The notes beneath the pieces are model-generated. The model was given only the letters and a program-made list of their open reading frames with translations. It searched no databases and had not been told where the DNA came from. From the NCBI GenBank assembly GCA_029881255.1, contig JAOUMY010000001.1, positions 186,001 through 250,000 of the forward strand: DNA of 64,000 bases, given 5' to 3'. Of the stretch, positions 36,843-47,263 are shown piece after piece. Each line of letters begins with the position of its first letter. The stretch's first letter is position 1. This stretch comes from Gammaproteobacteria bacterium (lineage in GTDB: Bacteria; Pseudomonadota; Gammaproteobacteria; S012-40). The translations under genes and the position numbers were made by a program.

Positions 36843-38405
36843 CTGAGCCGAAAACTCCTTAAATCCACAGCGATAGTCAGCGCCATGACTATGATTTCCC
36901 GCGTACTCGGATTCGCACGGGACATGGTCGTTGCCCGTATATTCGGTGCCGATGCGGCTACTGATGCCTTTTTCGTCGCCTTCAAGATTCCGAATTTCCT
37001 GCGCCGATTATTCGCCGAGGGGGCGTTTTCCCAGGCCTTTGTTCCTATTCTGACGGAGTATAAGGAACAGCGTAGCGAGGCTGAACTTAAGGATCTCATC
37101 GACCGGGTGGCCGGTACGTTTGCGGTGATTTTGTTCGGTATCACCCTGATTGGGGTGATCGGCTCGCCAATTCTGATCATGATCTTCGGTCCTGGCTTTA
37201 TCGACGAGCCGCAGAAGTATGATCTTGCGGTGGAGATGCTCAAGCTGACCTTCCCCTATTTATTCTTTATCTCTCTGGTCGCCCTATCTGGAAGCATACT
37301 CAATACGTTTGGTCGTTTTGCCTCGCCAGCATTTACACCGGTTCTGCTCAATGTTTGTTTAATTGCGGCGGCGTTGTGGATATCACCTCAAATGGAAAGA
37401 CCGATTGTCGGTCTGGCCTGGGGTGTGTTTCTAGCGGGGGCGACGCAGTTATTATTTCAGGTTCCGTTTTTGATCAAGCTGGGTTTGATGCCGGTTCCCA
37501 AGTGGGGTTGGAAGCATGAAGGTGTGCAGCGGATTGCAAAACTTATGGTGCCGGCAATATTTGGCTCGTCGATAGTCCAGATCAATCTGTTACTCGATAC
37601 TTTGATTGCCTCGTTTCTCATCACCGGAAGTATCAGTTGGCTTTATTACTCAGACCGACTCATGGAGTTTCCTCTTGGTGTTTTCGGTATTGCCCTTGCG
37701 ACAGTGATACTACCGAAGCTATCTCGCGATCATGCACGTTCGGATAAAAGTACATTTTCAAATACCATCGACTGGGCTTTGCGCCTGGTGTGGTTGGTTG
37801 GCGCGCCGGCCGCTGTGGGCCTGGCCACACTGGCGGGGCCGTTGCTGGCAACACTGTTTTATGGTGGCGCCTTTACCGCAGAAGATGTCGACATGGCCAC
37901 CCTCAGCCTGATGGCCTATTCCCTGGTTTTACTCAGCGCCATTTTTGTGAAGGTACTCGCACCCGGTTTCTATGCCCGCCAGGATACCAGGACTCCGGTA
38001 AAGATAGGCATTATCGCCATGGCCGTGGGCATGTTGCTCAATATTGCCATTGTCGTACCTTTATATATGAGCGATTTTAAAGGTGCGCATATGGGACTAG
38101 CACTTGCCTCTGCCGGGACTGCGTTGATCAACGCCTCGCTGTTATTCAGACGACTTCGCGCTGACGGTGTCTACACACGGCATTCGGGCTGGATGTTGTT
38201 TCTTTTCCGTATCGTACTAGCAAGTTCAGTAATGGGTATCATCATTTCTGTTTACTCGCCCAACATTGAAATCTGGCTAGCATGGAACACGCTGGAACGC
38301 GGGCTAAATCTATTGATGTGGGTAGGTATCGGCATGCTGAGTTATTTCGGAACTTTGATTTTGAGCGGACTAAACATCAAGGCGCTGTTAAAGTCTACCC
38401 ATTAG
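36843..38405 (+). CDS. murJ: Lipid II flippase MurJ (non-ATG start)
   Basis: This is an about 520-residue inner-membrane protein of the MOP superfamily that moves lipid II to the periplasm for peptidoglycan synthesis. The first in-frame ATG (36885) would cut off conserved residues: upstream, SRKLLKSTAIVSA is in frame and matches the MurJ N-terminus. The only codons available between the in-frame stop (36822) and that segment are ATA, ATT (36840) and CTG (36843), with AAGGA at 36831-36835. CTG at 36843 has 7-base spacing and is my choice; ATT is the alternative. About 14 membrane helices, RVLGFARDMVVARIFG and GAFSQAFVPI are visible. Confidence 0.92.
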   Translation: MSRKLLKSTAIVSAMTMISRVLGFARDMVVARIFGADAATDAFFVAFKIPNFLRRLFAEGAFSQAFVPILTEYKEQRSEAELKDLIDRVAGTFAVILFGITLIGVIGSPILIMIFGPGFIDEPQKYDLAVEMLKLTFPYLFFISLVALSGSILNTFGRFASPAFTPVLLNVCLIAAALWISPQMERPIVGLAWGVFLAGATQLLFQVPFLIKLGLMPVPKWGWKHEGVQRIAKLMVPAIFGSSIVQINLLLDTLIASFLITGSISWLYYSDRLMEFPLGVFGIALATVILPKLSRDHARSDKSTFSNTIDWALRLVWLVGAPAAVGLATLAGPLLATLFYGGAFTAEDVDMATLSLMAYSLVLLSAIFVKVLAPGFYARQDTRTPVKIGIIAMAVGMLLNIAIVVPLYMSDFKGAHMGLALASAGTALINASLLFRRLRADGVYTRHSGWMLFLFRIVLASSVMGIIISVYSPNIEIWLAWNTLERGLNLLMWVGIGMLSYFGTLILSGLNIKALLKSTH

Positions 38406-38577
38406 ATGAACGAAACAGAAGCAAAGAAACTTTGGTCTATAGGCTTACGACTTTTCAAAATACGTAATTCGCGCAGCCAATACTGGCGACTATGTAGAAA
38501 TGGAAAACATAGGTAGATCATCAAATAAAACGAACCGTCAACCAAGTCATACACTATACCGACGACAATGGCTCAGA

Positions 38578-40980
38578 CTATATTGCCGGACTCAAGCTTT
38601 CATTTATGTAGTCGGTAATAACTGCAGCAGGCTGAGGCTCTCTCAAATGAAACCCTTGGACGACGTCGCAATTATTCTCTAACAGGAAATCCAGTTGTTC
38701 CTGTGTTTCCACCCCTTCCGCGACGCAGCTTACGTTTAACATTTCACTCATCGCAATAATCGCCCTGGTAATTTGCGCATCGTTCGAGTCTTTACAAACG
38801 TCATGTATAAAAGAGCGATCTATCTTTATTTTCTTTATTGGAAAACGCTTCAAATAACTGAGCGACGAATAGCCTGTCCCAAAATCATCTAAAGCCAGAC
38901 GCACGCCGTAACGACATAGTGAGTTGAGCGAGTCGGCTATATTTTTTACATTATTGATCAACAAACTTTCCGTAATCTCAATCTCGAAGAGATTCGGTTC
39001 GAGATTGTGACGTTCTAGCGCCGATTCTATCGTATCCACCAGGTTGTGATCTGAAAACTGCCGACTAGAAAAATTAACGCACATGACCAAGTCCGAAAAC
39101 CCAAGCCTATGCCACGACTTGGCTTGTGCGCAGGCCTGGTCCAAAACCCACTTTCCGACGTCTACTATCATTGAGGTTTCTTCCAGCAAATGCAGAAACG
39201 TGTTCGGCAGAATAACGCCCAGTGCTGGGTGATTCCAACGCAGCAAGGCCTCCATGGCGACAATCTTATTTAAACGAAAGTTATATTGAGGCTGATAATA
39301 TACCTCGAGTTGATTTTCCTGAATGGCGATATGTAAGCTGTTCTCAAGATTTAACCTCTCGAACGCTCGAGCACTCATGTCTTTTGAATAATATTGATAA
39401 TTATTTTTGCCCAGATGCTTGGCACGATACATGGCCATATCCGCATTTTTTAGCAACACATCTGCTCTATCACTATCATTGGGATATAGACTCACCCCAA
39501 CACTGGCCGTTATGTGCAAGCTTTGAGTATCGACAACAAACTTGGGACGCATGCTATCAATGATCTTTTGTGCCAATTTAGAAATATCTTCTTCAGATGC
39601 GATGTCATCAAGCAATATTGCAAATTCATCACCGCCAAGCCTAGCAACCGTATCACCACTACGCACAACCTTTTGCATGCGGCTGGAAATCTTTATCAGG
39701 AGTTGATCACCTGTATCATGTCCAAGTGTATCATTCACAAATTTAAACCCATCGATATCCACGAACAAAACGGCGATGAAACGATTATGCCAATGCGCAC
39801 GACTCAAAGCCTGTTCGAGTCGGTCGTAAAACAGGGAACGATTCGGCAACTGCGTCAATGCATCATGGGTAGCCATGTGCTGTAGTTTTTCCTGGTTGAG
39901 CATGTGCTCAGTAATATCTTTACCGATCGCGACGTAGTGGGTGGGTTCTGCATCTCGATTTCTAATGGTGGTTACAGTTTTTTGTACGTGCAGAGCATTA
40001 CTATTACCACTTTTTTCCTGACTAATGTCATTGTATTGATCTGTATCGGCCATATTGCTCAGAAACCTGGCGTAAAAATCATTTTCATCACAGGACAAGC
40101 TCGTTATTGACTGACCTATAAGATCTCCGCTTTTATACCCCGTCATATGTTCAAAACTTCTATTTACGTATTCAATATCTCCTTTCAAATCTGTGATCAA
40201 TACGGTGTCCGCGGTGTTCTCTAGCGCACGGGAAAGCTTTTCCATTTGAATTTCCGCTTTGCGTCGCTTGGTAACATCTCGCACGACTACGATAGCCGAT
40301 TTACCCTGTTCCGAATCTTTGAACGCAGACACATGCGCCTCAAAATGTCGTATATTTTCTTCCGGATCAGGAAAATCGACATTAAACATATCTTTCTCCC
40401 CGGTCTGTTTGACATAGTTCAAACATCGTTCTATATCGTATTGCTGCTCACGCGGAAGGAAGTCATACATACTCATATTGATCACACCGTCCTTGGTATG
40501 TTCCGGAAGGGGGTAGTTGATAAACAGTATTCTTCCGTCGTAATCAACGTGCATTATGATATCGGCAGTATTCTGAGTTAAGGTATCCCATATACTCTCA
40601 GAGTGAATTAAACGTTCTTGATGGTGCTTGAATTGAGATACATCTTGTATGTAACCAGCATGGCGTGTTGACTTGCTTGTGAGTTTTGGCTGCTCAAAAC
40701 TAATTAACAGCGTACCTTCGCCACCATGACTCCTCTTAAAACGGGCTTCTAAATCAGATCTCTGTCCTTGCCGCACTCTTGAAATAAAGTAGTCACCAAA
40801 TGATAGTCCGTCCTCTGGAGCTTGAATCGTTTGATTAAGTACATCAAGCAAGTTTGGCGCGTCGTTTTTCGACAGACCAATTATCTTAAATGCATTTTCC
40901 GTCAGGTGAAGCGTATTGTTTTCAGTATTAAATACCCATCGGCCGACTGGGATGGAATCTTGCGATCGAGATTTTGGCAT
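38578..40980 (-). CDS. PAS-GGDEF-EAL cyclic-di-GMP signalling protein
   Basis: This protein has 800 residues from the ATG at 40980, which has GGAAGG upstream. The N-terminal ~370 residues hold three PAS-like segments. They are followed by a diguanylate cyclase domain (motif GGDEF in ARLGGDEFAIL, with the ATHDALTQLPNR opening) and an EAL phosphodiesterase domain (EALLRW, NFSSRQF, EITES, DDFGTGYSS, KIDRSFI, AEGVET). Catalytic residues of both enzyme domains are present, so it could make or degrade cyclic di-GMP. It has no membrane helix, so it is cytoplasmic. The signal is unknown. Type IV pili genes elsewhere in the window are a possible output. Confidence 0.92.
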   Translation of the reverse strand: MPKSRSQDSIPVGRWVFNTENNTLHLTENAFKIIGLSKNDAPNLLDVLNQTIQAPEDGLSFGDYFISRVRQGQRSDLEARFKRSHGGEGTLLISFEQPKLTSKSTRHAGYIQDVSQFKHHQERLIHSESIWDTLTQNTADIIMHVDYDGRILFINYPLPEHTKDGVINMSMYDFLPREQQYDIERCLNYVKQTGEKDMFNVDFPDPEENIRHFEAHVSAFKDSEQGKSAIVVVRDVTKRRKAEIQMEKLSRALENTADTVLITDLKGDIEYVNRSFEHMTGYKSGDLIGQSITSLSCDENDFYARFLSNMADTDQYNDISQEKSGNSNALHVQKTVTTIRNRDAEPTHYVAIGKDITEHMLNQEKLQHMATHDALTQLPNRSLFYDRLEQALSRAHWHNRFIAVLFVDIDGFKFVNDTLGHDTGDQLLIKISSRMQKVVRSGDTVARLGGDEFAILLDDIASEEDISKLAQKIIDSMRPKFVVDTQSLHITASVGVSLYPNDSDRADVLLKNADMAMYRAKHLGKNNYQYYSKDMSARAFERLNLENSLHIAIQENQLEVYYQPQYNFRLNKIVAMEALLRWNHPALGVILPNTFLHLLEETSMIVDVGKWVLDQACAQAKSWHRLGFSDLVMCVNFSSRQFSDHNLVDTIESALERHNLEPNLFEIEITESLLINNVKNIADSLNSLCRYGVRLALDDFGTGYSSLSYLKRFPIKKIKIDRSFIHDVCKDSNDAQITRAIIAMSEMLNVSCVAEGVETQEQLDFLLENNCDVVQGFHLREPQPAAVITDYINESLSPAI

Positions 40981-41156
40981 CGTTTTACACCTTCCACGAG
41001 AAAATGGCAATAAGACAACAATTCACAATAATAGCCAATTTGGCAAATAAAGTTATATAAAAATAATATTATTAAAATTTTCGAGGGATTTTTGACTAAA
41101 GACACACAACTAAAGCGCGATATACATCTAAATCTCATCGCCAAAAGGAGTAGTGT

Positions 41157-42275
41157 GTGTCTCAAACATGGTCCAATGATTTTCTCAATCGAATGAAAAA
41201 CACTGGTGACGATTTAGCAGAGAGTGTTATTGAGTCTCTGAATAGGAATAAACAACTCGAATTAGCGAACAAATATTTCGCACAACCGGAAACAAACACT
41301 CACGTCCTAAACGATTTACCCGCCGAACTACAACGCTATATTGGCAAAACATCACACCTACCGGAATGGGCGGACAGGCAAAAAATTCTTTTGGCACAAC
41401 ACTTTTTTTCTACCAGAGGCCCTGTCTTTGGCGCTGTTCTATTGTGTGGTTCTCTACCGGTCCTCTACGCCGGCGGCCTAGGTGGTGCGCAAGTGTTGGC
41501 CGCAACCGGGCAAATGAGCAAGCACTACGAACGCCGCGCAGGTGAAACCTTACGATTTATTTTAAGTGCTATGGAACCAGGCGGCCTTGATCCGCAAGCC
41601 CAAGGTATCCGAACCATTCAACGCGTGCGATTGATGCACGCAGCAATACGCCACTACGCTAAACATAGTCCAGACAAGTGGCCGGCCAAACCAGATTGGG
41701 GAGTGCCGATAAACCAAGAGGAATTGGTTGGTACTCTACTGGCATTTTCCAGCCAGGCATTAATCGGATTGAACAAAATGGGCGTAGTACCAACCGAGGA
41801 GGAAAAGCAAGCCTACTTCCATACATGGAAAGTGATCGGGCACTTGTTAGGCATCAGTCCAGAAATTATTCCAGAGACTCTCGAGAGCGCCGCAGAACTA
41901 TGGGCGGCAATTTCTAGACGTAACTTTATGCCTAGTGCGGCAGGTCGAGAGTTAGCGAAGGCGCACCTTCACTTTCTCGAAGGCCTGGTGCCAGGCCATA
42001 TATTCGATGGTGTTGTTGTCGCATTGATGCGCTATCTCATGGGAAGAAAAATTACCGAACATGATCTTGGGTTTCCCAAGCCGGGCTTCTTCAGTTGGTT
42101 GATTTGTGTTTTACGTGGTGTCTTCGGCTTTAAAGAGTCATTGATAGATTGCTCAAGGACGATCAAACAAATTGCGGAGCACGATAGCATACTTTTCATG
42201 GAAGGCCTGGCAAACCATTGGATGAGAAACGACAGCAAACCGTTTCAAATTCCTGCTTCATTGACGCAACGTTAA
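41157..42275 (+). CDS. DUF2236 / MpaB-rubber oxygenase-like protein
   Basis: This 372-residue protein starts at GTG (41157), with AAAAGGAG ending 6 bases upstream. It resembles the DUF2236 family, which includes latex-clearing protein (a b-type haem dioxygenase that cleaves polyisoprene) and fungal MpaB (oxygenase that cleaves a farnesyl side chain). The core motif QRVRLMHAAIRHY (155-167) contains the His (161) that ligates haem in characterised members, and a second block WKVIGHLLGI (224-233) follows. No signal peptide is seen. The next gene starts 9 bases later and encodes a terpene-cyclase-like membrane protein, so a role in isoprenoid or quinone side-chain chemistry is inferred. Confidence 0.78.
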   Translation: MSQTWSNDFLNRMKNTGDDLAESVIESLNRNKQLELANKYFAQPETNTHVLNDLPAELQRYIGKTSHLPEWADRQKILLAQHFFSTRGPVFGAVLLCGSLPVLYAGGLGGAQVLAATGQMSKHYERRAGETLRFILSAMEPGGLDPQAQGIRTIQRVRLMHAAIRHYAKHSPDKWPAKPDWGVPINQEELVGTLLAFSSQALIGLNKMGVVPTEEEKQAYFHTWKVIGHLLGISPEIIPETLESAAELWAAISRRNFMPSAAGRELAKAHLHFLEGLVPGHIFDGVVVALMRYLMGRKITEHDLGFPKPGFFSWLICVLRGVFGFKESLIDCSRTIKQIAEHDSILFMEGLANHWMRNDSKPFQIPASLTQR

Positions 42276-42284
42276 GGACTGACC

Positions 42285-43019
42285 ATGAACAAAGTAATAT
42301 GTGACAACGGACTGATCAACAACCCCGACAATCTCTTTAATTGGGTCGACATCAACTGCGTTCCTTATACAAAACTACAAATGGTCTTGTTTGCCGGTGG
42401 ATGCCTGATGTGGGTGGTTGCTTATGTCATCATGATTAAGAACGCGCGCAAGTTTCGCTTTATCGAAATGGCGGCGTTTGCTGGTGTTAGTAATTTCGCC
42501 TGGGAGGCATTGTGGTCATGGTGGTACACACCTGATACTGGACAGTTTATGGTCTGGACCTATCGTGCGTGGTTTTTCCTGGACGTATACATCGTCTATT
42601 TGCTGTTTAAGTATGGGCATAAGCAAATTCAAAATGAATATCTACGAAAATACTATTCGCTATGGTGCCCCGCTGCCCTGGTTGCCTGTATGGTGGTGTA
42701 TTACTATTTCATCAAACAAGGATATGACATGCCGATTGGTGCGAACACTGCCTATATCTGCCAGATTATTTTGTCTGTTCTCTGCCCGTTGGTGCTATTA
42801 AATGCAAAGACGCTAGATGGGATATCATTCCATTTCGCCTGGCTGAGAACCTTTGGCACAGCCGCCAATACTGTTTTTATGTTTCTACACTACCCAGACA
42901 ATCACTTCGTTCATACCCTGGGCGTTATCTCATTTGTTTTGGACATGGGGTATCTGTACCTGTACAAGAAGAAAGAACTAAACTTGAAGCAGGGTTACAC
43001 CGCTGCCGTTGCGGCTTAA
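42285..43019 (+). CDS. Pyr4/PaxB-like integral membrane terpene cyclase homologue
   Basis: This 244-residue protein has about seven membrane helices. The length, topology and motifs resemble the fungal PaxB/Pyr4 family of membrane terpene cyclases. NFAWEALW (W73-E74) corresponds to the N-x-AWE motif that holds the catalytic Glu. FAWLRTFGT near 184-192 matches the WLxRFxG block. VLDMGYLYLYKKKE (D220) matches the C-terminal Asp motif; Pyr4 uses Glu63 and Asp218 as proton donors. It is coupled to the DUF2236 gene. The family call comes from remembered motif similarity, not a search, and the substrate is unknown. Confidence 0.6.
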   Translation: MNKVICDNGLINNPDNLFNWVDINCVPYTKLQMVLFAGGCLMWVVAYVIMIKNARKFRFIEMAAFAGVSNFAWEALWSWWYTPDTGQFMVWTYRAWFFLDVYIVYLLFKYGHKQIQNEYLRKYYSLWCPAALVACMVVYYYFIKQGYDMPIGANTAYICQIILSVLCPLVLLNAKTLDGISFHFAWLRTFGTAANTVFMFLHYPDNHFVHTLGVISFVLDMGYLYLYKKKELNLKQGYTAAVAA

Positions 43020-43056
43020 AACTTACCTCATCTTGTCAAAGGCGATATTGAAAATA

Positions 43057-43086
43057 AAAAGGGTTGGAGAAATCTCCAACCCTTTT
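43057..43086. terminator. Bidirectional terminator between convergent genes
   Basis: A 14-bp stem (43057-43070 with 43073-43086) has A-rich and T-rich flanks on the two sides. It lies between the terpene-cyclase-like gene (plus) and the PKD gene (minus) and can serve both. Confidence 0.88.
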
Positions 43087-43106
43087 CTACTTCTAAGACA
43101 ATACAA

Positions 43107-45221
43107 CTACCGGCAAGACACGCTAGTCGAACCAGTCAGTGTGTCGTTTGCAGTATCGCTGTCTTCTGCGGCACTAATTGTCGCCGTCCAGTCGATATTT
43201 CCTGTTCCTGAACCTGTACAGGAAACTTCAACACCGAAGCGGAAACGTGTGCTACTACCAGGAGTTACCACATCGGTTACAGTATTTTGCGCGATTGTAA
43301 CAACTACCGGACCAGTGACATCAGCGCTTAGGGAAACATCTGCGTCCTGCGCCATTGTTGTACCACCAGCGATCGTAACAACGCTTCGACTTGCTGTGCG
43401 AGTAGTACTGGTCTTTATCGTTTTCGGCGCTTGAAGCTTACTCAAGAACACATCAGCAAGCGGCGTAACGATTGCGGTAGTACCTGCGGAATCTGCAGCA
43501 CCTTCATTGTCGGTCACAGTCAACACAACATTGTAGGTTCCTGCATCGGCATAGGTATGCATAGGCATCGCATCAGCAGAGCTGTTGCCATCACCAAATT
43601 CCCACATGTAGGAAACAATAGAGCCGTCATTATCGACCGAAGCACTAGAATCAAATGCAATCGCTTCACCGAGTTTCACCATGTATGGGCCACCCGCATT
43701 GGCAACCGGTGGTAGATTACCTGCACTTATGTTTGCAGTAGTGCTTGCCGACATGCTAGCACCGGCGTCGTCGGTTACCGTCAAGCTGACTGTATAAACG
43801 CCATCGCTAGCATAGGTATGCATAGGCATAGCACCGGTTCCGGTATTGCCGTCACCAAAATCCCAGGCATAGTCAGTAATGGTGCCATCGGAATCGCTGG
43901 AAGCACTTCCATCCAACATCAACGCAACACCCGCAGTTCCGTAATAAGGACCACCGGCATTAGCAGTTGGCGGTACGTTAGCGACACCGATTGAAACAGT
44001 CGTTGTTGCACTACCTGTATCGCCTGCATCATCAGTAACCGTCAAAACAACATTGTAGACACCTTCACCGCCGTAGATGTGCCCGGTGTTCATACCACTT
44101 CCCGTGCTACCATCTCCAAAATCCCAATGGTAGTCAATGATAGTTCCGTCGGTATCAGTTGAACCACTTCCGTCGAAATTAATCATGTCGCCAGCAAAAC
44201 CTTCATACGGACCGCCAGCATTTGCAACAGGTGCCTGGTTTACTGGCATCTCCGCGATAGTCGCTGACGTTGCCGCAGAATCCATCGCACCTGCATCATC
44301 CATAACAGTTAACACTACGTTATAAACGCCCGCCATTATGTAAGTATGCGAAGGGTTTGGGCCTGTACCACTGCTGCCGTCACCAAAATCCCAATCATAA
44401 GAAACTATGCTTCCATCGGGATCGTTTGAACCACTACTATTGAAAGCGATTGCATCACCCACCATGCCGCTATATGGACCATTCACATTAGCAACAGGCG
44501 CCTGATTGCCCAAGCCTATTGTTGCTGTTGTCGATGCCGTTGCTGAATCACCTGCATCGTCGGTTACCGTCAAGGTCACGTTAAACACGCCATCAGAAAT
44601 ATACGTATGTGTTGGCGTAACACCACTTCCCGTACTGCCATCGCCAAAATCCCAACTGTATATTACGATGATTCCATCAGGGTCTTGTGAACCACTGCCG
44701 TTAAACGTAAGCGGAATGTTGACGGTGCCTGGGTATGGACCGCCGGCATTTGCAACAGGCATTTGATTGCCCGCCGCCGGATCAAGATCACCCATAATGT
44801 AGGACGGTGCAGTTTCCACCAATCCCGTTGCAATACAGGTATCTCGATCATAAGTCGGGTTTGCACTACCGCTAGTCCAACCCGGTTGCGTGCTAGCCAT
44901 AATCTCAGCGAGATTATTTGAACCGGTCGCATCACCATCTGAATCCAATGTCTCAACATCACGAATACGCGCATCAATAGCGCCCGCCGTTGATAGGCAA
45001 AGCGCCTCACCATAGGGATTAAGATTCTGAGTACTGTCTGCATGACAGAGCTGACAATCGCCATTTAAATAGGAACTCGATCCAGGATAGACCTGACTCC
45101 ATGCTGTTCCGTAAGCACCTCGCGCATGCGCTTCTGGCACTGTGATTGCGGTTGTCAGTGTGGTGACAACAAAAAATGCCCCTAAAGGAATAAAAGGGCG
45201 TACCGACAATTTCATTTTCAT
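43107..45221 (-). CDS. Secreted PKD-repeat protein with a CxxCH motif
   Basis: This 704-residue protein begins with a signal peptide cleaved near AHA-RG (residue 33). A short N-terminal module has C56-x-x-C59-H60, followed by LNPYGEAL, a pattern seen in single-haem cytochrome-like domains. Five PKD domains of about 85-90 residues follow (roughly residues 153-590), each with PVANAGGPY, DPDG, WDFGDG, HTY and LTVTDDAG motifs. A C-terminal domain of about 110 residues contains two cysteines. PKD repeats form rigid extracellular rods that bind proteins or polysaccharides. The gene stands alone, has a terminator, a GGAG ribosome-binding site, and a candidate sigma-54 promoter. Confidence 0.88.
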   Translation of the reverse strand: MKMKLSVRPFIPLGAFFVVTTLTTAITVPEAHARGAYGTAWSQVYPGSSSYLNGDCQLCHADSTQNLNPYGEALCLSTAGAIDARIRDVETLDSDGDATGSNNLAEIMASTQPGWTSGSANPTYDRDTCIATGLVETAPSYIMGDLDPAAGNQMPVANAGGPYPGTVNIPLTFNGSGSQDPDGIIVIYSWDFGDGSTGSGVTPTHTYISDGVFNVTLTVTDDAGDSATASTTATIGLGNQAPVANVNGPYSGMVGDAIAFNSSGSNDPDGSIVSYDWDFGDGSSGTGPNPSHTYIMAGVYNVVLTVMDDAGAMDSAATSATIAEMPVNQAPVANAGGPYEGFAGDMINFDGSGSTDTDGTIIDYHWDFGDGSTGSGMNTGHIYGGEGVYNVVLTVTDDAGDTGSATTTVSIGVANVPPTANAGGPYYGTAGVALMLDGSASSDSDGTITDYAWDFGDGNTGTGAMPMHTYASDGVYTVSLTVTDDAGASMSASTTANISAGNLPPVANAGGPYMVKLGEAIAFDSSASVDNDGSIVSYMWEFGDGNSSADAMPMHTYADAGTYNVVLTVTDNEGAADSAGTTAIVTPLADVFLSKLQAPKTIKTSTTRTASRSVVTIAGGTTMAQDADVSLSADVTGPVVVTIAQNTVTDVVTPGSSTRFRFGVEVSCTGSGTGNIDWTATISAAEDSDTANDTLTGSTSVSCR

Positions 45222-45659
45222 TTATCTCTCCTTGAGTAGGAACTTAATAGATGAAGTTTTTGCGAACTTCACGGCGCGCATAACAAACGACACAAAAAAA
45301 TTCATGGGCGCCTACAACGATTGGCGGTGCTTATTGACTGTGCTGTATGTTGCAAAGAACATCCGTGCCCTCTGCAACAAACAGCGTTTAACAAACTTAA
45401 CAACAAGACACGACATACTAATTCCGGAACCAGTATGCTGCCGATCGCGAGGATTGCACGCCATGTGCCATGAGAATTTTTTCTCATAAACACATGAGCA
45501 TAAGAGAAGATTGGAAAGCAGTTCACAGAATTGTGATTTTGTTTAACTGCTATTGTGTTGGTTTTCGGTGACTTGCCACAGAAGTTAAAACAGTCATGCC
45601 TTTGCTAAATTAATCCCGTCGCTTAAACACAACGTTTCAACAGATAACAAACGCGACAT
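45222..45659. other. Intergenic region upstream of the PKD gene
   Basis: This is a 438-base region. It contains the candidate sigma-54 promoter (separate entry), a small hairpin formed by 45470-45476 and 45481-45487, and the end of the gene at 45660. Short frames in it have no ribosome-binding site and no recognisable product. The 5' untranslated leader of the PKD mRNA would be about 220 bases. Confidence 0.5.
45454..45470 (-). promoter_or_regulatory. Candidate sigma-54 promoter of the PKD gene
   Basis: On the minus strand TGGCACATGGCGTGCAA has the GG-N10-GC spacing of sigma-54 promoters and shares 14 of 17 positions with the pilA promoter. It would start transcription near 45443, about 220 bases before the ATG at 45221. 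Confidence 0.62.
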
Positions 45660-46037
45660 TCAATTTTTCTTCTCTGCGGAACAAACCCAAATCATTGCCG
45701 CATCAAAATCTCTAAACACCATAAACTCTTGTCCCTCAGCTTCGCTTAATGTCTGATAGCTTCGGGCCAAACCGTATTGCAAATCAGTTTTCGCCACAAA
45801 GGCTCGGCGTGTTTTTTTCTTGATCACACTTTTGCCGGCAATCTGAGACATTTCCTGGAAGTCTAACTTAACATCAACTACCTCGGTTACGTCTTCGATA
45901 ACATTGAACTCGGGATTAAAATCTGCATCCTGCATCACGACAGAACGTATTCCCTGCACTAAATCAACGCTTAGCTCTTTGCCGTAGTGCAACACCACTA
46001 ACCGTTTTTCCGGATAGATATCGTATCGAAAATTCAA
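45660..46037 (-). CDS. Hypothetical protein (SpoIIAA/STAS-like fold suspected)
   Basis: This 125-residue soluble protein starts at TTG (46037), with AAGGTG about 9 bases upstream. The alternating pattern (FRYDIYPEKRLVVLHYG, a helix, DFNPEFNVIEDVTEV, ending in FRDFDAAMIWV) resembles small SpoIIAA- or STAS-like proteins common in marine proteobacteria, but I do not recognise a characterised member. No catalytic motif is seen. It stands between the PKD gene and the divergent ribF. Confidence 0.6.
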   Translation of the reverse strand: MNFRYDIYPEKRLVVLHYGKELSVDLVQGIRSVVMQDADFNPEFNVIEDVTEVVDVKLDFQEMSQIAGKSVIKKKTRRAFVAKTDLQYGLARSYQTLSEAEGQEFMVFRDFDAAMIWVCSAEKKN

Positions 46038-46312
46038 GTGACTACACCTTCTAAACCAAGCTCGAGACTTCCCTGAAGTTTACGCCTTTGACATCCTGTC
46101 AACACCATTCATTCTGCAGTTACGACGCCGACAAAATGCTGCGCCACTTGCCCCACTATGTTCGATCCAACACTCCAGATATCAACTATTATTCTCAAAA
46201 CCTGGCGGTGATTGTATCTACCTGCTCGCCCAATCTGACAAATATACCAGCGCAGTGCGCAAGCTCAAATTCGGTTATAATCCAGCGACTAGCTCAAACC
46301 CCGGAACGAACA

Positions 46313-47263
46313 GTGAAAATTATTCGCGGCCTACATAATATTCGGGCCGAACACCAGCAGTGTGTAGCGACCATCGGCAATTTTGATGGCCTACACCTTG
46401 GGCACCAGGACATCATTGTGCGCCTCAAGCAGGTGGCCGCCGAGCGTGGTGTGCCTGCGACGCTCATCACCTTTGAGCCCTATCCCCAGGAGTTTCTGCG
46501 GCCCGATCCGGCGATTTCACGTTTGACGCGTTTTCGCGAGAAAATGACCCTATTGAAAGAATGGGGCGTAGACCAGGTTTTGTGCCTGCGTTTCAACCAG
46601 TGGCTGGCCTCATTAGAACCCGAGCAATTTATACAACTGGTATTGGCGGAAAAACTGGCCATTCGCCACCTTATCGTCGGTGATGACTTCCGTTTTGGGC
46701 GACAGCGGCGCGGTGATTTTGATATGCTTACCCGTTCGAGTGAGGAATATGGCTATAGCATCGAAAACACCGAAACTGTAGCGATAGACGATGAACGCGT
46801 CAGTAGTACCCGGGTGCGCAAAACCCTGGCAGATGGCGACATGCAGACGGTCAAACGACTATTGGGTCGCGACTATGCCATGCTTGGCCGTGTCGCGCAT
46901 GGTGATAAACGTGGGCGCACTATCGGCTTCCCGACGGCCAACATCCATTTGCACCGTAAATCAGTCCCAGTTAGCGGGGTTTATGCGGTAAATATGGAAG
47001 GGCTCGGGAATACCCCTGTAACAGGTGTCGCCAACGTCGGTAATCGCCCGACAGTCGATGGAACGCGTAGCCTGCTAGAGGTTCATTTGTTTGATTTCGA
47101 CCATGACATCTATGGTCGACACGTAAAAGTAAACTTCATCGACTTCATTCGACCAGAAATGCGCTTCGATGGGCTGGACGCCCTCAAGCAACAAATTGCC
47201 AGGGATAGTGAACAAGCTAGAAAAATACACCTAGACCGGTCGACCAATACGCCCACCCAGTAA
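46313..47263 (+). CDS. ribF: Bifunctional riboflavin kinase / FAD synthetase
   Basis: This is a 316-residue enzyme that makes FMN and then FAD. I start at the GTG at 46313 (KIIRGLHNIR), matching the E. coli RibF N-terminus and length (313). The longer frame upstream has no support. The FAD synthetase domain shows TIGNFDGLHLGHQ and GDDFRFGRQRRGDF. The flavokinase domain shows GRTIGFPTANI, KSVPVSGVYAV and GVANVGNRPTV. In many relatives murJ, ribF and ileS are adjacent; here both junctions are interrupted. Its 3' end overlaps the convergent regulator gene by 33 bases. I saw no FMN-riboswitch-like leader. Confidence 0.96.
   Translation: MKIIRGLHNIRAEHQQCVATIGNFDGLHLGHQDIIVRLKQVAAERGVPATLITFEPYPQEFLRPDPAISRLTRFREKMTLLKEWGVDQVLCLRFNQWLASLEPEQFIQLVLAEKLAIRHLIVGDDFRFGRQRRGDFDMLTRSSEEYGYSIENTETVAIDDERVSSTRVRKTLADGDMQTVKRLLGRDYAMLGRVAHGDKRGRTIGFPTANIHLHRKSVPVSGVYAVNMEGLGNTPVTGVANVGNRPTVDGTRSLLEVHLFDFDHDIYGRHVKVNFIDFIRPEMRFDGLDALKQQIARDSEQARKIHLDRSTNTPTQ

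Follow-up and report, generated by a model that had tools for sequence, protein, structure and literature searches.

A conserved pair of DUF2236 oxygenase and Pyr4-type terpene cyclase homologues beside signalling genes suggests a terpene-based bacterial signal

In the window (the whole stretch of DNA that was analysed, 64,000 nucleotides of a gammaproteobacterial genome), a homologue of the DUF2236/MPAB_Lcp haem oxygenases (41157..42275, + strand; 372 aa; GTG start at 41157, with AAAAGGAG upstream) is followed after 9 bases by a homologue of the Pyr4-type transmembrane terpene cyclases (42285..43019, + strand; 244 aa; seven helices), a layout of two open reading frames that an earlier note on this DNA had described correctly. 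The pair is conserved and is no local accident. Its two families, their active-site residues, its conservation across phyla, the co-divergence of its members and its linkage to signalling genes are direct observations. The proteins are probably an isoprenoid cyclase and a C=C-cleaving oxygenase of one pathway, and the recurrence of their genes beside those of signalling enzymes suggests an undescribed terpene-based bacterial signal.

Both family assignments of the earlier note hold, with Pfam matches far above cut-off: PF25129 (Pyr4-TMTC; E 1e-19, 71.6 bits, cut-off 27) for the open reading frame at 42285-43019 and PF09995 (MPAB_Lcp_cat; E 1.1e-24, 88.2 bits, cut-off 23) for that at 41157-42275; NCBIfam holds no model for either protein. 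The Glu and Asp motifs quoted for the cyclase homologue are present: the Glu of NFAWE (E74) is invariant in 38 of 38 homologues, as are N70, W73, D100 and Y223, and the second acid (D220) is Asp in the window protein and in 30 of the 38 homologues, with Asn in the other 8. We take E74 and D220 to be equivalent to the catalytic acids of Pyr4. The known Pyr4-like cyclases, both fungal (Pyr4, PaxB) and bacterial (XiaH, TylF, GroF, ZigF), likewise match PF25129 and possess seven transmembrane helices, the Glu and mostly the Asp; unlike them, the protein described here is found without a prenyltransferase, epoxidase or meroterpenoid cluster and is tied to DUF2236 and signalling genes. A survey of 2026 lists 1,107 bacterial Pyr4-like proteins, of which only the 264 near terpenoid genes were kept (PMC13307353); a DUF2236-linked subfamily would probably fail such a filter, and the accessible portion of the paper mentions neither DUF2236 nor signalling.

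The AF2 model of the Pyr4-type protein (pLDDT 95.9) consists of seven long helices, and its nearest solved folds are those of the KDEL receptor and SWEET transporters (Z up to 13.7; Foldseek E 8e-3), a likeness at the level of the model that shows a common arrangement rather than a function. Together with cystinosin, these proteins superpose on the model at Z 8-13.7, a hint that terpene cyclases and PQ-loop-type proteins may have a seven-transmembrane architecture in common. Sequence searches of the PDB returned no relative of the protein among solved structures, and neither GTDB genomes, scanned with this protein as a single-sequence pattern, nor viral contigs, scanned with the Pyr4 alignment, yielded any match.

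The motif QRVRLMHAAIRHY of the DUF2236 protein includes H161, which is invariant, together with R127 and T131, in 38 DUF2236 homologues. Alignment to LcpK30 (5o1l; phmmer/hmmsearch) equates H161 with His198, R127 with Arg164 and T131 with Thr168. In LcpK30, His198 is the proximal haem ligand, and Arg164, Thr168 and His198 are reported as crucial active-site residues that bind haem or are needed for activity (PMC5522427); the placement of a haem site at H161, first made from the sequence alone, is borne out by this alignment. The AF2 model of the DUF2236 protein (pLDDT 90) matches LcpK30 (TM 0.78, E 2e-11) more strongly than the crystal structure of t-anethole oxygenase. The distal Lys167 of LcpK30, conserved in only 59% of Lcps (PMC5522427), aligns with Glu130, and Glu148 of LcpK30 falls in an insertion and has no clear counterpart; the protein is therefore no typical Lcp. 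With LcpK30 and fungal MpaB (PF09995) it has in common the fold, the haem His, the distal Arg and Thr, and membership of an alkene-cleaving family, from which cleavage of a C=C bond with O2 is predicted; it differs from the extracellular Lcp in that no signal peptide is apparent on inspection, and in having a terpene cyclase as its partner. A role in rubber degradation was considered and rejected, given an oxygenase without a signal peptide and no rubber-degradation genes nearby.

In an alignment-based DUF2236 scan of GTDB genomes, 36 of the 80 closest loci, the window not counted, have a Pyr4 homologue beside DUF2236. Gene order within the pair is the same throughout, with gaps mostly of -4 to +40 bp, and the carriers, from at least seven phyla, belong to Chromobacteriales, Fibrobacterota, Bacteroidota, Acidobacteriota, Chloroflexota, Myxococcota and Spirochaetota and include a Kapaibacterium; cultivated ones are found in Silvimonas, Iodobacter and Andreprevotia, for example. 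Independent samples contributed 16 more pairs. Pairwise divergences of the DUF2236 and Pyr4 proteins are correlated (r = 0.79; best of 2,000 permutations 0.21). In the tree, the window pair groups with pairs from Fibrobacterota and Chromobacteriales (support 1.0), a cross-phylum grouping that indicates horizontal transfer. Searches with the Pyr4 profile, in samples that included the centre genomes, matched 24 of 395 Bacteroidota genomes at E 1e-6 and, at E 1e-25, 5 of 217 Acidobacteriota, 4 of 221 Chloroflexota and 10 of 195 Myxococcota genomes and 2 of 200 genomes of the order of Silvimonas.

Members of both families also occur in other arrangements. The genomic context of a distinct Pyr4-like subfamily in the Bacteroidota-centred sample (L135-L137, L140, L142-L147, L149) is conserved and commonly includes a ClpS-like gene, and DUF2236 is absent from it. 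On a Nostoc plasmid (L014:7980-9800) a Pyr4-like gene adjoins that of an isopentenyl phosphate kinase, and on a Streptomyces plasmid (L012:4612-7155) a DUF2236 gene adjoins polyprenyl synthetase genes. In Mycobacterium and Mycolicibacterium, a related DUF2236 gene adjoins DUF5995 and class III cyclase-AAA genes, with no Pyr4 (L045:8001-13244, L049, L060, L069, L035, L046). A DUF6989 membrane protein with conserved Glu and Asp is encoded beside DUF2236 and signalling genes (L072:9274-9954, L083, L087, L082, L078, L172), with Pyr4 present in L087 and near in L172; for the notion that the DUF6989 proteins of Bacteroidota (L072, L083, L087), encoded next to DUF2236, are unrecognised relatives of Pyr4, no support was found (hhalign probability 1.7%).

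In the window, the pair lies within a block of approximately 7.9 kb (38406..46312) between murJ (36885-38405) and ribF (46313-47263). The block is an insertion, as the earlier note had held, because murJ directly adjoins ribF in six family relatives. Neither the DUF2236 nor the Pyr4 gene was found in 12 other family members, and among 398 sampled genomes of the phylum the Pyr4 family is above cut-off in one, that of the window. Besides the pair, the block contains a divergent PAS-PAS-GGDEF-EAL gene (38578..41010, - strand; Pfam EAL 1.2e-70, GGDEF 8e-51, PAS), the start of which is uncertain (TTG at 41010 or ATG ten codons later), a gene with five PKD repeats and a 125-aa open reading frame. 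The PKD-repeat protein (43107-45221, - strand; five PKD domains) has a CQLCH motif (CxxCH, haem c type) in its N-terminal part. The divergent intergenic region (41011..41156), delimited by inspection of the sequence, likely holds the promoters of both divergent transcripts; promoter-like matches in 40900-43200 are at chance level, not above shuffles. A bidirectional terminator-like hairpin (43056..43087; arms AAAAGGGTTGGAGA/TCTCCAACCCTTTT) separates the pair from the convergent PKD gene; it has a 14-bp stem and T-runs flanking it on both strands, and the transcript of the pair is predicted to end there, in agreement with the terminator previously ascribed to the pair.

A signalling enzyme is encoded within 300 bp of 22 of the 37 pairs in the first set and 12 of the 16 in the independent set, versus 2 of 60 random sites in carrier genomes (Fisher P 5e-10 and 5e-9, respectively, values that overstate the case because the loci are not phylogenetically independent); these counts are of six-frame HMM hits, not gene calls, and the signalling domain models were seeded partly from neighbours of pairs. 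The corresponding counts are 5 of 44 for DUF2236 without Pyr4 and 5 of 28 for Pyr4 without DUF2236, and four of the 16 in the independent set lack a signalling gene within 1 kb. Pfam distinguishes at least six receptor/output architectures among the neighbours of pairs, some of them giant proteins with a Ser/Thr kinase (STK) domain: 7TMR-DISM-HisKA-HATPase-REC (L017), 7TMR-DISM-SpoIIE (L071), 7TMR-DISM-HK (L089), STK-AAA-GAF-SpoIIE (L032; 1,731 aa), STK-AAA-GAF-HK (L178; 1,784 aa), STK-AAA (L038), class III cyclase-AAA (L183, L176) and SpoIIE (L042). The operon of the pair often takes in the signalling gene in Bacteroidota, Acidobacteriota and Myxococcota, and the genes at times overlap. In the window, the neighbour is the divergent PAS-GGDEF-EAL gene, which the earlier note had overlooked; it is a candidate signalling partner that constitutes weak evidence alone because Gammaproteobacteria commonly possess GGDEF-EAL genes. 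That the pair moves from phylum to phylum is clear from the tree, and myxobacteria or Bacteroidota with extensive sets of signalling genes account for many of its carriers, such that the adjacency might be a by-product of signal-rich genomes and shared horizontal transfer with no functional link; this explanation is very improbable in view of the low count at random sites in the same carrier genomes and of the co-directional, often overlapping junctions with different types of signalling gene (L089, L127, L128, L130, L178, L183), which are unexpected by chance.

In two Acidobacteriota a DUF6272 gene (L032:7434-7979, L051:7453-8004) immediately precedes the pair, and an STK-AAA-GAF-SpoIIE gene lies downstream; we take DUF6272 to include the SiaB kinase of SiaABCD. 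Identity with a known anti-phage defence system found no support: PADLOC has no match to either protein of the pair and the giant neighbours match through generic kinase or cyclase domains only.

The other annotated flanks (RlmM, PNPase, cytochrome bd, FadL, phospholipase C-like) are unrelated genes with housekeeping or envelope roles and reveal no recurring metabolic partner; epoxidase and core-forming genes do not recur among the annotated neighbours of pairs any more than prenyltransferase or transporter genes do, and no meroterpenoid cluster genes (prenyltransferase/epoxidase/core-forming) are present in the neighbourhood within the window. These surroundings bear on the explanation that the terpenoid made by the pair serves a different purpose (as an antibiotic, a pigment, a membrane lipid or a quinone modification) and that the signalling neighbours merely time its production. 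Biosynthetic genes often adjoin regulators, and the characterised bacterial Pyr4-like cyclases make meroterpenoids and triterpenoids, some of them antibacterial (PMC13307353); against this, most neighbours are kinases/phosphatases or second-messenger enzymes, with at least six types represented, a dedicated DNA-binding regulator was not recognised among those annotated, and no recurring prenyltransferase, P450 or transporter was seen beside the pair, and we consider a terpenoid with another job rather unlikely. Because the association with signalling genes is strong, the likely purpose of the pair moves from the unnamed terpenoid of the earlier note to a signal.

DUF2236 is also found with a cyclase of a second kind. 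In seven myxobacterial loci (L085:6102-9113; also L068, L070, L076, L081, L086, L091) it is the C-terminal part of a protein of ~1,000 aa, the N-terminal part of which is a squalene-hopene-type cyclase (SHC; PF13249 and PF13243 by Pfam in the one protein scanned) with DXDD intact in all seven; DUF2236 is thus joined to terpene cyclases of two unrelated kinds, both proton-initiated. Six of the seven fusions are preceded by a small gene from a single family, identified as DUF2378 in the locus that was scanned. The proposal that the pair would cyclise and oxidatively cleave an isoprenoid is strengthened by the fusions and is the best chemistry on offer; what it missed is the association with signalling.

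The myxobacterial fusions bear in addition on a reading of the pair as itself a sensor, in which a globin-fold haem protein (for O2, redox or lipid) and a seven-transmembrane receptor feed the adjacent kinase or cyclase. The globin fold of LcpK30 is similar to globin-coupled sensors (PMC5522427), the KDEL receptor and SWEET transporters can be superposed on the seven-transmembrane model, signalling genes are adjacent, and the second catalytic Asp is replaced by Asn in some homologues, all of which would suit a sensor. Invariance of the residues for Lcp catalysis and of the Pyr4 acid, together with a myxobacterial cyclase partner that is SHC-type with DXDD, points to chemistry, and a Z near 13 between helical bundles can reflect a common arrangement; we regard a sensor formed by the pair itself as improbable.

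For a cyclase and an oxygenase acting in one pathway, squalene or a quinone/polyprenyl chain could be the substrate. In fungi, SHC-like and Pyr4-type cyclases belong to one squalene (triterpenoid) pathway (PMC11109268). In this onoceroid pathway both cyclase types (HomoS, SHC-like; HomoB, Pyr4-type) act on squalene, and the cyclase partners of DUF2236 may do likewise; unlike the pair, the fungal pathway uses an FAD epoxidase, and in the accessible part of the source no DUF2236 protein is reported and there is no signalling link (PMC11109268). Squalene/phytoene synthase is encoded in 21 of 24 pair-bearing genomes versus 7 of 14 controls, and the genome of the window has two copies; the three carriers in which it was not detected may include incomplete assemblies. 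Since 21 of the 24 carriers encode the synthase, squalene is as credible a substrate as a quinone chain; a quinone or polyprenyl chain is possible.

From these observations we infer a reaction order, a substrate, a product and a signalling role, as follows. The Pyr4-type membrane protein would protonate a polyprenyl chain (squalene or a quinone/polyprenyl side chain) and close one or more rings, and the soluble haem protein DUF2236 would cut a C=C bond of that molecule oxidatively, as Lcp does and MpaB probably does too. The product, a small oxidised terpenoid that might be named an 'apo-isoprenoid' after the apocarotenoids, would act as a signal to be sensed by the adjacent receptor or second-messenger protein: the PAS-GGDEF-EAL protein in the window, and elsewhere a 7TMR-DISM kinase, SpoIIE phosphatase, STK-AAA protein or class III cyclase. 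That the neighbour reads the product of the pair as a signal has, in our estimate, slightly less than an even chance of being correct. More tentatively, the pair may represent a new class of bacterial terpenoid ('apo-isoprenoid') hormone, made by a portable cassette that is plugged into the receptor of each lineage in at least seven phyla. LuxI/LuxR and CqsA/CqsS are quorum-sensing synthase-receptor gene pairs in which, as proposed here, the gene of a small-molecule enzyme directly adjoins that of a sensor, in some cases a membrane hybrid kinase; unlike these, the cassette has other enzymes and receptor types that differ between lineages, and its ligand is only proposed.

The literature on DUF2236/MpaB concerns rubber degradation and fungal mycophenolic acid, and among open-access journal papers none was found that reports the pair or connects it with signalling. 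What is known of bacterial Pyr4-type cyclases and of DUF2236 oxygenases comes largely from work on secondary metabolism or on rubber degradation; a conserved module uniting the two beside genes for kinases, phosphatases and nucleotide cyclases would provide these orphan groups with one shared function, and orphan receptors, for example those with 7TMR-DISM or PAS-GGDEF-EAL domains, with candidate ligands. The use of cleaved isoprenoids as signals by bacteria, comparable to that of retinoids in animals and strigolactones in plants, thereby becomes testable.
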